Assembly: GCA_018333995.1 (NCBI GenBank)
Contig: JAGXSG010000028.1
Coordinates: forward strand, 62,001 to 126,000
DNA from: Clostridiales bacterium
Lineage (GTDB): Bacteria > Actinomycetota > Coriobacteriia > Anaerosomatales > SLCP01
Direction of reading: 5' to 3'
DNA: 64,000 nucleotides
Positions 39,112 through 44,834 of the stretch are shown here, one piece after another. Position numbers and translations under genes: made by a program. Each line of letters opens with the position of its first letter. The first letter of the stretch is position 1. The notes under the pieces are model-generated. The model did no database searches. It saw only the letters and a list, made by a program, of their open reading frames with translations, and was not told where the DNA came from.

Positions 39112-39666
39112 TCAAGCGCTGGGCATCTGATCTTTCGTTCTGATGGCGCTGATGATCGCGCCATCATCGGTCGCAGCGGGGCTCGTGCGTTGCCGCGCGG
39201 ATACTCCCCGCTCGGCCAGAATGGTGATGACCGCATCGACCGCGGTTGGAAGCGCGGCTTCAACCTCAGGTGTCAGTTCGGTGACCCACTGCTCCATGCT
39301 GCCGACTTGAATGCCGACGCACTCGGCGTCGGGTTTCAGGCCGCACAACTCGGCTGCCTGAAGGACATCGACGAAACGGATGTCGTGCAGCGAGTGCATG
39401 ATTTGATTGGGTGCGAGATCCTCGGGCGTGAGCCGCACGACCGTCCCGGGGGGGTGTCCTGTGCGATCAATTGCGTCTACCACCACTATGAGCCGGGTGT
39501 CCCGGAACATGTTGAGCATGCCAAGCCCCATCGTGCCAGCGTCTACGACTTCGACACCATCTGGGAAGTCGAAACCGTTCATGAGGAGTTCCGCGACGCG
39601 CACGCCAGCCCCTTCGTCGCTCATTAGCGGGTTGCCAATGCCAAGAATGAGGGTACGCTCAGTCAT
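39112..39666 (-). CDS. hyaD: Hydrogenase maturation endopeptidase
   Basis: A 184-residue HyaD/HybD-family protease. The nickel-sensing residues are in LGIGNPLMSDEGAGV (Glu) and VVDAGTMG/VVVDAIDRTG (Asp), with the histidine in IMHSLHDIRF. It removes the C-terminal tail of the hydrogenase large subunit once nickel is inserted; here the predicted tail is 20 residues after the His of DPUVGCGVH. ATG 39666 has GGGAG upstream. It ends the hydrogenase locus, one gene after the HemN-like protein. An acidic/serine-rich C-terminal extension of about 25 residues is unusual. Confidence 0.93.
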   Translation of the reverse strand: MTERTLILGIGNPLMSDEGAGVRVAELLMNGFDFPDGVEVVDAGTMGLGMLNMFRDTRLIVVVDAIDRTGHPPGTVVRLTPEDLAPNQIMHSLHDIRFVDVLQAAELCGLKPDAECVGIQVGSMEQWVTELTPEVEAALPTAVDAVITILAERGVSARQRTSPAATDDGAIISAIRTKDQMPSA

Positions 39667-39695
39667 CAAAACTCCCTATCCGCATCGGTCCTAGT

Positions 39696-41018
39696 TTAGC
39701 CTGCGGCTCGCTCGGTCGTTGGTGAGTAGCAGGTCTCGCCTTCCAACAGGAGTAGCCGCTCTTCGAGAGGTAGCGCTTCTCGGGCCTTGTCGCGCAGGTC
39801 GTTTGAGGATGCGAGCGTCTCCCGCATCATGACCATAAGCAGGTAGCGGCCCTTTTCCGTGAGCGTGATATAGCGCCCGTCGTCACCGGCGATTCCGCCC
39901 GCTGCGAACATGAATGCCAGTTCCGGGGCGAGCGCCCGTTCGACAGGCATTGCGAAGTCGCGGCGGAAACGTTCCTTGTCAAGTTTGAGCCCGAAAAGAT
40001 CGGTGACAAAACGATAGCGTCGGCGCGCGGTCGCAGAGTAGGGTCGTCCAGACTTGCACACCGACATTCGGCCCTCGGTGATTGCGCGAGAATACTCTTT
40101 GAGCGAGAAGTTATTCGCATACATCCTTCCGTTGAGAAAAGAGATCGCGCCAGAACCGATTCCAACGTACTCCCCGTAATCAACGATGTACTCGTCGATC
40201 ATTGCATCGACATCGCGGGAGTATGTCCATGCTGATGCGGGAACGTAGTGACCGGCCAGACGATCTGCGATTAGGCGGTAGTAGCGGGCTTCTCTTGCGT
40301 AATCGATATGTCCTACCGCGCGGGCGAGCTCGACGCGTGTTGCGGGTGAGGCCATGAGCGGGTAGAACGTCGTCTGGTTGGCGCCGCTCGCCTTCACAAA
40401 TGCGATGTCACGCTCGAGGATGGTTTCAGTTTGGGATGGAAAATTGAAGATCATATCCACGTTGAGCGAGTGGAACTCGCCGGCGACAGAACGGAGCCGG
40501 TCGAGCGTGGCGCGTCCGTCCCCATACTTCTCGTATCGGTCCATCTGCCGGAGGAGTCCATCGTCGAAGCTCTGAACTCCCACGGAGAGGCGCTGCACCC
40601 GTTTGGACAAGACTGAAACGAGATCCGGACCGAGGTGGTTGGGACTTGTCTCGCACGACACCTCGCGGATCGAAAAAAGGCTACGAGCAAGATCGATAGT
40701 CTCAGCGAGTTCGTCGAGCAGGACCGTTGGTGTGCCCCCGCCGATGTAGAGGGATGGGAAATCGTATCCGAGATCAGCGACCATGCGCATCTCGCGGCGC
40801 AACTCGCCAAAGTAGGTGCGCGCACGGTCCTCCCGGTAGAGGAAGCGGTTAAACGAGCAGTACAGGCAGAGGCGCTCACAAAACGGTACGTGCGCGTAGA
40901 GCACGTACGCCCGGCCTTCGACGGGTCCGGGAAGTGAAGTGATCGAATCGGGTTTCAGTTCTAGGTAGCGCGGGTTGAGGATTCGGAGGGCACCGGTGAT
41001 CAACCGTTCAGAGATCAT
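39696..41018 (-). CDS. HemN/HemW-family radical SAM protein
   Basis: A 440-residue radical SAM enzyme. The cluster motif CERLCLYCSF (CxxxCxxC) is preceded by VLYAHVPF; LYIGGGTPTVL, RLSVGVQSFDDGLLRQMDR and NVDMIFNFPSQT are all HemN-family signatures, and a HemN-type C-terminal domain follows. Family members decarboxylate coproporphyrinogen (HemN), insert haem (HemW) or open the haem ring (HutW/ChuW-like). Its place between hydrogenase cytochrome b and protease suggests a haem-related job for this locus, but no specific reaction can be assigned. Confidence 0.82.
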   Translation of the reverse strand: MISERLITGALRILNPRYLELKPDSITSLPGPVEGRAYVLYAHVPFCERLCLYCSFNRFLYREDRARTYFGELRREMRMVADLGYDFPSLYIGGGTPTVLLDELAETIDLARSLFSIREVSCETSPNHLGPDLVSVLSKRVQRLSVGVQSFDDGLLRQMDRYEKYGDGRATLDRLRSVAGEFHSLNVDMIFNFPSQTETILERDIAFVKASGANQTTFYPLMASPATRVELARAVGHIDYAREARYYRLIADRLAGHYVPASAWTYSRDVDAMIDEYIVDYGEYVGIGSGAISFLNGRMYANNFSLKEYSRAITEGRMSVCKSGRPYSATARRRYRFVTDLFGLKLDKERFRRDFAMPVERALAPELAFMFAAGGIAGDDGRYITLTEKGRYLLMVMMRETLASSNDLRDKAREALPLEERLLLLEGETCYSPTTERAAG

Positions 41019-41150: not shown

Positions 41151-41828
41151 CTAGTGGCCTTTACCGCCAATGACCTTTCCCTCCGCGTCGAACTGAAGGC
41201 CCTCACTCTCCTTCCAGGAGAAGATCAGCTTGGAGGGATCCCTGCTTTCGACGTTGGCCAGGTACGCGTGGATCGCGGTGAACACGATGAACGCCCACAT
41301 GATGTAGTAGTGGATGATGCGCATGTGCATCGGTCCGCCTACAGCGTCCGTGCCAACCGTGAAGATAGCCCAGTTCATCACTGGCGCATAGATTGCAAAG
41401 CCAGTGTAGGCTGCCGCCAGCGTCAGTGGAACGGTCGCAATGTAGGCGATCTTCTGTAACACGCCGTACTTGGCTCCGATCGGGTGTTCCTTCTTCAGGA
41501 ACAGGTAGTACTTGAGCCACGGGATGAACTGGTGTCTATTGAGCTTCTGTGGAAGCCAGTTCTTGATGTCCGTGTCCATCTCACGCGAGCCGAGACGTGT
41601 GGCTGTCTTCACGAAGAAGGCGGCGACGATGCGCACGACAAGGTTGATGAGGAGCACGAACATGAAGACGAAGTGCATACCGCGGGCGACACCCATGAAG
41701 CCGTCGACGAACGGATAGTGAATGTAGAAGCCCGAAATTACGAGGGCTACTATGGAGATCAGGTTGATCCAATGAGTCATCACGAAGATGAACGGATGCG
41801 CCTCCCGGTAGTGCGCGGGATGAGCCAT
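41151..41828 (-). CDS. hyaC: [NiFe]-hydrogenase b-type cytochrome subunit
   Basis: A 225-residue membrane protein with four to five helices and histidines placed for two b haems (for example FVMTHWINLISI, GMHFVFMFVLL, MRIIHYYIMWAF and FTAIHAYLA). It anchors the hydrogenase and passes electrons from the small subunit to the quinone pool. Its start lies two bases after the large-subunit stop with GGTGAGG upstream, so the three subunits are co-translated. A menaquinone acceptor fits the quinone genes at 9.1-12.1 kb. Confidence 0.93.
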   Translation of the reverse strand: MAHPAHYREAHPFIFVMTHWINLISIVALVISGFYIHYPFVDGFMGVARGMHFVFMFVLLINLVVRIVAAFFVKTATRLGSREMDTDIKNWLPQKLNRHQFIPWLKYYLFLKKEHPIGAKYGVLQKIAYIATVPLTLAAAYTGFAIYAPVMNWAIFTVGTDAVGGPMHMRIIHYYIMWAFIVFTAIHAYLANVESRDPSKLIFSWKESEGLQFDAEGKVIGGKGH

Positions 41829-41830
41829 CT

Positions 41831-43477
41831 CTACCTCACCCCCATCGGCTTGGTGTAGACGGTGGCTTCCTTGCCGGTCTTGGGTTCAAACACGTGAACC
41901 CCGCACCCTACTCAAGGATCGAAGCTGCGTGCGACGCGGCACGCCTCAAGCGGCCGTTCGACTTCTTCAATCGGGGTGCCGATAAGTGCTTCTTCCATCG
42001 GCCCGCGGACGCCGTCAGCGTCACGCGAGGAGACGTCCCACGTCGACGGGGTCACGACCTGGTAGCGGTCGATCTTCCCGCCCTTGATGTCGATCCAGTG
42101 ACCGAGCGCGCCGCGAGGCGCCTCCCACAGGCCACCGCCCTGACCATCGCCGCCGTTGCTGGGCTCAAAGTACTTTGAGTCGCCGCCAGCAATGGCGGCG
42201 ATGAGTTCGTGGCACCACTGGAGCGACCAGTCGGCGACAACCTTCGTCTCAAGGTTGCGTGCCGCGACACGGCCGAGCAATGAGACGAGTACCTCGGGCT
42301 TGCCAGGAGCGCCGAGCGCGGTGAGCGTGCTGTCGATGATGTCCTGAACGGGAGAGACGCCCCTTAGGTACGCCACAAGCATCCGCGACAAGGGGCCAGC
42401 TTCCATAGGCAGGCCGTCGTAGCGGGGCGCCTTGTTCCATGAGTAGCGTGCGTCCGTGTTGTACTCGTCAAACATGGCATTTGTTTCTCCCACTGCCGGG
42501 TTAAGACCGGTGGGGGAGTCGTACCACGCGTGTTCGATGTACTCGGCGACTTTTGTCTCGTCCGGGTCTTCCACCGTCAGGCCCTTGCTGGTCACTACAA
42601 CACCGCCTGGCATGTAGCGGTCCGTAAGCTCAGGTGATTCGGTGTTGAACACACCCCAGGCAAGGAAGTTGCCATGGCCGCCGCCGTACTCGAGCGCGCT
42701 TGCGTAGAACGGGGCGATCGCGAGTGTGTCAGGGATCATTGTGTTGGTGACCCAGTCGTTGAGGCGCATAAGACGGAAGAGAATGTCGTCGAGCTTCTGC
42801 TCGGTCGGGACGAATGTCGTGCCGCCCGGAAGCGAAGTCATGAAGTGTGGGAACTTGCCGCCCATGATGGCGATGACCTCAGCTGCGACGGCCTGCATCT
42901 CAAGTGCCTCAAGGTAGTGCGCCACTGCGATCAGGTGCAGCTCCGCTGGCATGTCCTGTGCGTAGGCCGGATGGCCAAACCAGCCGTTGGTAAAGATCGA
43001 GAGTTGGCCGTTGTCGACAAACGCTTGGAGACGCCTGGCCACCGCTCCGAAGTCCGACACGCCGGTACCAGCCTCATGCGCAAGCGCGTAGGTGTCGGCA
43101 ATGTCAGCGGTGAGCGCTTTTACGGGGTCCACGTAGTCGAGCGCGGCGAGCGTGTAGAACCACAGGATGTGACTGTGAATGTACTGCGCCGCCTCGATCA
43201 GGTTGCGGATAATCCGGGCGTTGTTAGGGATGGTGATTCCGAGCGCTTTCTCGGTCGACATGGTTGACGCGTGACCATGGGAGATCGGGCACACGCCGCA
43301 TATGCGCTGTGATATGTAGAATGCGTCGGCGGGTTCACGGTCGAGGAGGATGGTCTCCAGTCCGCGATATAGTCCGCCGGAAACCCAAGCGTCGGTTACG
43401 ACGCCATCGTTGACCTCGACCTCGAAACGCAGGTGTCCTTCAATTCTGGTCAACGGATCAATTACCGCGCGGGCCAC
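41831..43477 (-). CDS. hyaB: [NiFeSe]-hydrogenase large subunit, UGA = selenocysteine 522
   Basis: A 548-residue catalytic subunit if UGA at 41912-41914 is read as selenocysteine. The N-terminal nickel motif is RICGVCPISH (Cys60, Cys63). At the C-terminus the frame reads SFDP-UGA-VGCGVHVFEP and continues to TAG 41831-41833. This restores DPUxxCxxH (Sec522, Cys525, His528), the second nickel motif, followed by a 20-residue tail for the maturation protease. Stopping at the UGA would leave 521 residues without half of the active site. A SECIS-like hairpin follows the UGA. GTG 43477 overlaps the small-subunit stop by one base. Exchange of one base (TGC to TGA) by error is the main alternative. 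Confidence 0.9.
41882..41914 (-). promoter_or_regulatory. Selenocysteine UGA codon and bacterial SECIS-type hairpin
   Basis: In mRNA sense, UGA (41914-41912) is followed by 10 nt, then GGGUUCA-CGUGUU-UGAACCC: a perfect 7-bp stem with a 6-nt loop. The loop begins 17 nt after the UGA and has G as its second base. Both agree with published bacterial SECIS rules (apical loop of 3-14 nt, 16-37 nt from the UGA, G among its first two bases). Confidence 0.8.
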
Positions 43478-44643
43478 TATTTACCGCCTCCCTTCTTCAT
43501 CCGCTTCGCATCGTGCTCCTTCGCCGCTTCGTACGGCGCTCCGTCGCCCATACGTCCGGCCACTTTCATCCCGATTCCATGAGCGATGAGGCCAGCCGCG
43601 GCGACACCGGCAACAGCTCCCGCGATAGTAACCGGCCGTGTGTTGCCGATGTTTGGCAACGGCAGGTCGCGGTGGCGGTTGAGGAAGGGGGCGCCGACGT
43701 CGACCCAGTTCAGGCTCCCGCAGCCGATGCATGGAGCACCAGATTCGACGCACCAGCTCGTACGGCGGTTCCATCGAACGATCGGACAGTTGGTGAATGT
43801 CTGCGGCCCCTTGCATCCGACCTTGTATAGACAGTAGCCGAGCGCCTCTTCTTCAGTGCCAAACTCCGAGACGAACGCTCCGTTCTCAAAGTGGCCGCGA
43901 CGTGGACAGTTGTCGTGGATGGTCTGCCCGAAGATGTACTTAGGCTGGCCGAAGCGGTTGAGCTTGTTCAGAATCGCGCCAGTTTCGAGCGAACCAAGAA
44001 GAAGGACGTCAACAACGATCGCGACAACCCACTCGGGGTTTACTGGACACGTGGGCAGGTTGATGACCGGGGTGGCAATGCCTTTCTCCTCCAGGTACAT
44101 CGACACGCCTGTTGCGTCTGCGGGATTGGGGCGAGCCATCACGAATCCGCCGTCAACCGCACACGAACCGACGGCGATGATCGCCGCCGCGTTGGGTGCG
44201 CCGAGCTCGAGTTCCTTAAGACCGGTCTTCCCGCCGACACGCAGCGTGTTGCCGTCAAAGCCCTTCATGACCGAGCCCTCGTAAATCAAGATGTAGCCAG
44301 GCTCTTCGAATACTGCTTCCGCCGCGTCGAGGGCGTCTTGACCCTGCGCCATCGAGAGCGTCGCCGAGAAGTTCAGCGAGAGCAGCTCAAGCACGATGGT
44401 GGCCACATCGGGCGTGTCAGCCTGAGCGACCGACTCGGTGCAACCGGTGCATGCGCCACCGTGGAGCCAGACCGCAGGCTTAAGCTTTGCGCCCTTGGTG
44501 ACCGCAGCAGCGATCTGGGGGACGTATGCTTCCGAGAGCCCGAGTAGTGCTGCGATCGATCCGCAGTACTTGAGGAAATCGCGACGCGACACCCCCCGTG
44601 CTGCCAGGAGATCGTAGATCGCGTCGTGGTCCTCATGCGCCAT
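43477..44643 (-). CDS. hyaA: [NiFeSe]-hydrogenase small subunit, Tat-exported
   Basis: A 388-residue iron-sulfur subunit. A twin-arginine signal (SRRDFLKYCG, about 19-28) marks export with the large subunit, and a C-terminal membrane helix (about 337-358) anchors it. Proximal cluster ligands lie at Cys65, Cys68, Cys161 and Cys199, distal at His243, Cys246, Cys271 and Cys277, medial at Cys286, Cys305 and Cys308. Cys298 (SWCVESGAPC) replaces the proline that normally makes the medial cluster [3Fe-4S], so it is probably [4Fe-4S] as in NiFeSe enzymes. AAGGAGGTG precedes ATG 44643; an upstream GTG at 44745 has no usable site. Confidence 0.95.
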   Translation of the reverse strand: MAHEDHDAIYDLLAARGVSRRDFLKYCGSIAALLGLSEAYVPQIAAAVTKGAKLKPAVWLHGGACTGCTESVAQADTPDVATIVLELLSLNFSATLSMAQGQDALDAAEAVFEEPGYILIYEGSVMKGFDGNTLRVGGKTGLKELELGAPNAAAIIAVGSCAVDGGFVMARPNPADATGVSMYLEEKGIATPVINLPTCPVNPEWVVAIVVDVLLLGSLETGAILNKLNRFGQPKYIFGQTIHDNCPRRGHFENGAFVSEFGTEEEALGYCLYKVGCKGPQTFTNCPIVRWNRRTSWCVESGAPCIGCGSLNWVDVGAPFLNRHRDLPLPNIGNTRPVTIAGAVAGVAAAGLIAHGIGMKVAGRMGDGAPYEAAKEHDAKRMKKGGGK

Positions 44644-44834
44644 GCTATACACCTCCTTGTACCGTCGATAGAGTGCGAACAGATTACGCCGGGGAGTAAT
44701 CGCGCGCATTGTCGCGGTAATCCCCAGGCTACGAGAGGGCCACACCTCCTTCCCCCCGGGACGAGCGGAAAGTAGTCAGCATTATGCAGTGAGAACACGT
44801 GCGTTCGCGAGAACACCCCCGTCCCGATACTGGT

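Follow-up and report, generated by a model that had tools for sequence, protein, structure and literature searches.

An in-frame UGA at the nickel site of a Coriobacteriia uptake hydrogenase, almost certainly read as selenocysteine

The locus raises a direct question: does the TGA within this hydrogenase large-subunit gene end translation, or is it read as selenocysteine (Sec) at the nickel site? The window, i.e., the whole 64,000-nucleotide stretch analyzed here, belongs to a 1.95-Mb, 34-contig assembly that is 98.9% complete. An earlier note, made from the letters alone, had proposed read-through and a [NiFeSe] hydrogenase.

The interrupted frame and its operon

The genes and elements concerned are the following.

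43477..44745, minus strand: hydrogenase small subunit, with a Tat signal (SRRDFLK) and a C-terminal hydrophobic anchor (TIGR00391, 291 bits)
41831..43477, minus strand: large subunit of a predicted [NiFeSe] hydrogenase, running from GTG to TAG; 548 aa, residue 522 being Sec (Pfam PF00374, E 1e-163, residues 38-528)
41912..41914, minus strand: in-frame UGA, predicted Sec codon, terminal Ni ligand of DPUxxCxxH
41834..41893, minus strand: C-terminal peptide of 20 residues following the motif His; its removal by the maturation protease is expected from known [NiFe] maturation
41151..41828, minus strand: cytochrome b subunit, quinone-side partner (TIGR02125, 108.6 bits, below the cut-off of 121.5; PF01292, 79 bits, above cut-off)
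39696..41018, minus strand: HemN-like radical SAM protein (NF006385, 487 bits)
39112..39669, minus strand: HyaD/HybD-type hydrogenase maturation protease (TIGR00072, 129 bits; PF01750)

The large-subunit frame opens with GTG at 43477, overlapping the small-subunit gene by 1 nt, and closes with TAG at 41833-41831; the only in-frame stop between them is the TGA at 41914-41912. This codon stands where the C-terminal nickel motif would have its first cysteine; the aligned stretch of the closest solved enzymes reads SFDPCIACGVHV, and the position given for the TGA in the earlier note is correct to the base. The read-through C-terminus is ...SFDP-U-VGCGVH-VFEPKTGKEATVYTKPMGVR-TAG, so that a Sec codon coincides with the terminal Ni ligand in the DPxxxCxxH pattern near the C-terminus and two bases are left between the TAG and the next ATG (41828). 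The length of the tail and this short gap agree with those proposed before, as does the cost of halting at the TGA: the product would be 521 aa long, 27 residues shorter, and would be without both C-terminal Ni ligands, consistent with the dead enzyme that had been foreseen.

Conservation of the codon is readily apparent among relatives. In Coriobacteriia, the TGA occupies this position in 66/66 distinct TGA-bearing sequences read, and all nearby homologues without TGA have TGC or TGT. The tail beyond Sec is 25-27 aa long in all Sec-clade loci, with a pN/pS of about 0.5. Furthermore, the gene order small subunit, large subunit, cytochrome b is kept in the Coriobacteriia relatives with a locus long enough, and in those operons the cytochrome b gene adjoins the large subunit whether the enzyme carries Sec or Cys. 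The operon in the window is intact and has its own maturation protease, as had been claimed; hypD was also found in the genome.

These observations bear directly on the possibility that the UGA is a real stop, leaving a decaying gene or a truncated, inactive large subunit. TGA is an ordinary stop in this DNA (19/42 long window ORFs end in it), and standard annotation would end the gene there. Nevertheless, such a stop is very unlikely, taking into account that the TGA is conserved in 66 distinct sequences across many families together with the tail and a hairpin, that the operon is intact down to the protease, and that the shortened protein would have lost its Ni ligands.

The radical SAM gene, located between the cytochrome b and protease genes, is present in some but not all of the Sec clade (families such as f1, f4, f6-f10, f12 and f13), and it was not seen in f2 nor in any Cys operon examined. 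Its product is perhaps tied to haem for the cytochrome b.

The hairpin and the selenocysteine machinery

Shortly downstream of the codon lies a candidate SECIS element, identified by its fold, by conservation with pair changes and by comparison with synonymous-codon nulls.

41882..41901, minus strand: predicted SECIS hairpin, 7-bp stem and 6-nt loop CGUGUU, 10 nt after the UGA

The stem pairs GGGUUCA (41901-41895) with UGAACCC (41888-41882), and the distance from the UGA to the loop is 17 nt. The 45-nt fold has an energy of -15.7 kcal/mol with z = -2.2; a single z-score of this size is modest and was set aside as too weak for proof, and a comparative, codon-aware test was used instead. All seven pairs are formed in 42/63 distinct TGA-bearing Coriobacteriia sequences. 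Redrawing synonymous codons gives an expectation of 0.3 all-paired sequences (maximum 2 in 200), and shuffling synonymous codons within each column gives 12.7 ± 2.9 (maximum 22 in 300). Against both nulls, the observed count rules out chance as the source of the hairpin, and by this comparison the hairpin is conserved far beyond what the protein sequence explains. The two basal pairs vary among GC, CG and AT, both arms of the stem having changed, and in family f2 and its kin eleven sequences carry the hairpin in a shifted register (GTCCAC...GTGGAC). Among the Cys homologues, the stem was found in 0/37. The predicted element therefore has the features of a bacterial SECIS, namely an in-frame stem-loop soon after the UGA, a small apical loop with an early G, and conservation beyond codon constraint; the earlier description of it is borne out by both the fold and the comparative test.

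The refuting observation named in advance, a genome with no sel genes, was looked for, and the genes found are these.

C2:5415-7301: selB (380 bits)
C2:7345-8700: selA (605 bits)
C2:8873-9790: selD (L018, genome G000), with its own in-frame TGA, ...SSKAG-U-AAKWG... (364 bits)
C19:548-640: tRNA-Sec, anticodon UCA, single copy (74 bits)

On contig C2 the genes selB, selA and selD are neighbours, and together with the tRNA-Sec (selC) they make up the set by which an organism can make and insert Sec. The selD gene, adjoining selA and selB, is itself a selenoprotein gene.

Decoding of the UGA as some other residue (Cys or Trp, through a suppressor or a locally altered code), without any part for selenium, would also restore the frame, and a Cys at this position would give a working [NiFe] enzyme. 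This explanation is about as improbable as the real stop. TGA serves as a stop in the window, and the 19 long ORFs ending in it speak against a genome-wide change of the code as the explanation; moreover, the genome has the full Sec machinery, the SECIS-like hairpin is under selection, and selD of the same genome has a matching in-frame TGA arrangement. On these sequence grounds, the in-frame UGA of the large-subunit gene almost certainly specifies a selenocysteine in the nickel site.

Across the 398 Coriobacteriia genomes searched, a homologue was found in 220, and 69/398 have a hydrogenase gene with one in-frame TGA. A selA match occurs in 57/69 of the TGA-hydrogenase genomes vs 116/329 of the others (Fisher p = 3e-13, a test that ignores phylogeny). 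Genome G022, which is 99% complete and of the same order, carries a Cys copy alone, and neither selA, selB nor tRNA-Sec was found in it over the cut-off. The selA match is absent in 12/69 Sec-gene genomes, most of them incomplete. Three genomes rated 96-98% complete and carrying a TGA hydrogenase (G047, G051 and G075) have no detectable selA or selB, nor a convincing tRNA-Sec; because the sel genes are clustered, one missing contig could account for this.

Class assignment and distribution

The name [NiFeSe] hydrogenase, as given in the earlier note, stands for the predicted active-site composition; it does not stand for membership of the Desulfovibrio HysA clade (HydDB group 1a). In trees of 135 rows and, more carefully, of 41 rows, the Sec clade is sister to the Coriobacteriia Cys enzymes with 100% support, far from the solved [NiFeSe] enzymes of Desulfovibrio and Desulfomicrobium, and a forced union with the latter is rejected (p-AU 3e-7). 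The best solved relatives of the large subunit are periplasmic [NiFe] hydrogenases, at 441 bits vs about 350 for solved [NiFeSe] enzymes. The HysA model NF045518 gives 422 bits against a cut-off of 780, and the broader NF033181 gives 514 of 600.

Horizontal transfer of a Desulfovibrio-type enzyme (HysAB) would account for the Sec position, the UxGC motif and the four-Cys medial cluster of the small subunit, all of which are in common. Taking into account the tree and the scores, and that the medial Cys is also common to the Cys relatives, this origin is less probable still than the two explanations weighed above. In the window the fourth ligand of the medial cluster is Cys (WCVESGAPCIGC), and the alignment has Pro there in 1h2a_S. 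The four-Cys cluster was initially considered a [NiFeSe] hallmark and was dropped, as it also occurs in Coriobacteriia Cys enzymes and has Pro instead in the small subunits of L154-L156 and L158, which lie outside the class. These Pro small subunits, of the kind found with a 3Fe-4S medial cluster, stand beside Sec large subunits, which indicates that Sec and four medial-cluster Cys do not always go together.

As far as tree and scores can place it, the window enzyme is a Coriobacteriia-type uptake hydrogenase in a Sec version and not a Desulfovibrio HysA. It falls in the clade of the uptake hydrogenases of Coriobacteriia and has cytochrome b and protease genes in its operon, as for group 1i, a label carried over from the paper on isolates of the same order rather than obtained from the HydDB classifier. 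These Anaerosomatales isolates, Anaerosoma tenue and Parvivirga hydrogeniphila, were described as having 'Group 1i [NiFe]' hydrogenases, with selenium unmentioned (PMC9686372). Their enzymes share with the window the operon of small subunit, large subunit, cytochrome b and protease, the tree clade and the four-Cys medial signature; in contrast, the window clade has Sec for Cys at the Ni ligand, and a predicted SECIS. HysAB of Desulfovibrio and Desulfomicrobium (a group 1a variant; PDB 5jsu, 4kl8) shares Sec at the Ni ligand, Gly two residues on, and an in-frame UGA with SECIS, but forms a separate clade by the AU test; the window operon also differs in its partner gene for cytochrome b and in the lineage of its small subunit. 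The methanogen F420-reducing and F420-non-reducing [NiFeSe] enzymes (groups 3a and 3c, e.g., VhuU) have UxxC at the nickel site as well, but belong to a different hydrogenase group. In archaea, the SECIS is located outside the reading frame.

Homologues 81-86% identical to the window enzyme occur in Coriobacteriia and Anaerosomatales (former OPB41) MAGs (L055, 82%), which puts the window in or close to Anaerosomatales. The Coriobacteriia Sec clade takes in the greater part of the window's order as well as orders next to it. The residue two after the Ni ligand separates the two forms in this class: it is Gly with Sec in 66/66 and Ala with Cys in 35/35, the Gly of the Sec clade being as in HysA. 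One Cys enzyme (L063 and L109, genome G038) is nested in the Sec clade and retains the Gly; L063 is probably a Sec-to-Cys reversion, a reading to be held alongside the p-AU of 0.277 for its placement outside the Sec clade. Genome G038, 62% complete, is not among the genomes listed with selA. In three genomes (G031, G045 and G123; L102, L103 and L105), Sec and Cys copies of the hydrogenase occur together. A selenium-dependent switch between Sec and Cys hydrogenases is known in methanogens, and by analogy these pairs could possibly act in the same way.

A phylum-wide search of 396 genomes spread over Actinomycetota gave more TGA-bearing large subunits in other families, at 42-50% identity. These loci (L145, L148-L151, L153-L167) have the in-frame TGA at the Ni ligand and form at least two further clades, one of them near Desulfovibrio [NiFeSe]; for L163 and L165 the best match is to the solved [NiFeSe] enzymes. 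At least 5 Sec/Cys changes are needed on the tree. A single Sec origin, with all Sec sequences on one side of a branch, was rejected (p-AU 6e-51), a test of the grouping and not of the direction of change (gain or loss). A sequencing or assembly error with TGC as the true codon, conceivable in a 34-contig draft, has a negligible probability and is excluded in practice, because the TGA recurs in dozens of other independently assembled genomes, including the single-contig G003, and the downstream hairpin occurs only where the TGA is present.

Proposed function and significance

The frame with its UGA, the conserved hairpin and tail, the sel genes and the operon are directly observed, and on the genetic side the assignment is about as secure as sequence evidence allows. 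Taken together, they point with high confidence to a membrane-anchored, periplasm-facing H2-uptake hydrogenase in which the first C-terminal Ni ligand is Sec. In the mechanism proposed, SelB with Sec-tRNA(UCA) would recognize the hairpin at 41882-41901 and insert Sec at the UGA (41914-41912), and translation would run on to the TAG at 41833-41831. HypA-F would then load the metal centre, after which the operon protease would cut off the peptide following His528; the Tat system would export the complex, and electrons from H2 would pass via cytochrome b to quinone. Sec insertion, Ni-Se ligation, export and the electron route are expected steps of this scheme, and selenium incorporation into the large subunit is what we infer from the gene. 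The presence of selenium in the enzyme, like any gain in activity or O2 tolerance, would follow by analogy with HysA.

In HydDB, [NiFeSe] variants are listed for no groups other than 1a, 3a and 3c, and 1i is termed putative (PMC5037454). A 2026 review restricts [NiFeSe] hydrogenases to sulfate reducers and methanogens (PMC13188914), although a VhuU with Sec has been reported from Asgard archaea (PMC11291895). Annotation of HysA truncated at the opal codon was described earlier (PMC4730141). The type of mis-annotation is accordingly already known, and the Sec hydrogenase of the Coriobacteriia lineage appears not to have been known before: the literature search turned up no publication that names Sec hydrogenases from Coriobacteriia or from any other Actinomycetota, with bioRxiv and subscription papers outside its scope and an earlier report possible there.

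It seems rather likely that Sec entered the group 1 uptake hydrogenases more than once, in HysA, in the Coriobacteriia 1i enzymes, in a clade from other Actinomycetota families (f46, f48 and f54), and in a clade nearer HysA (f34, f46, f60 and f79), and that a large, unrecognized set of selenium-dependent H2-oxidizing enzymes in anaerobic subsurface Actinomycetota is hidden by truncating annotation. Since gene callers drop the catalytic motif, the Sec enzymes will be thrown out or misinterpreted in surveys that use the C-terminal Cys motif as a check. The finding would place Sec in another hydrogenase group across a whole bacterial lineage, common in the subsurface, in which selenium hydrogenases were not expected, and would tie H2 oxidation in the bacteria of the Coriobacteriia Sec clade to selenium supply. 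Cultured members of the window's order exist, and the naturally occurring pairs of Sec and Cys sister enzymes, some of them in a single genome, offer a test of the role of Sec in O2 tolerance and activity.
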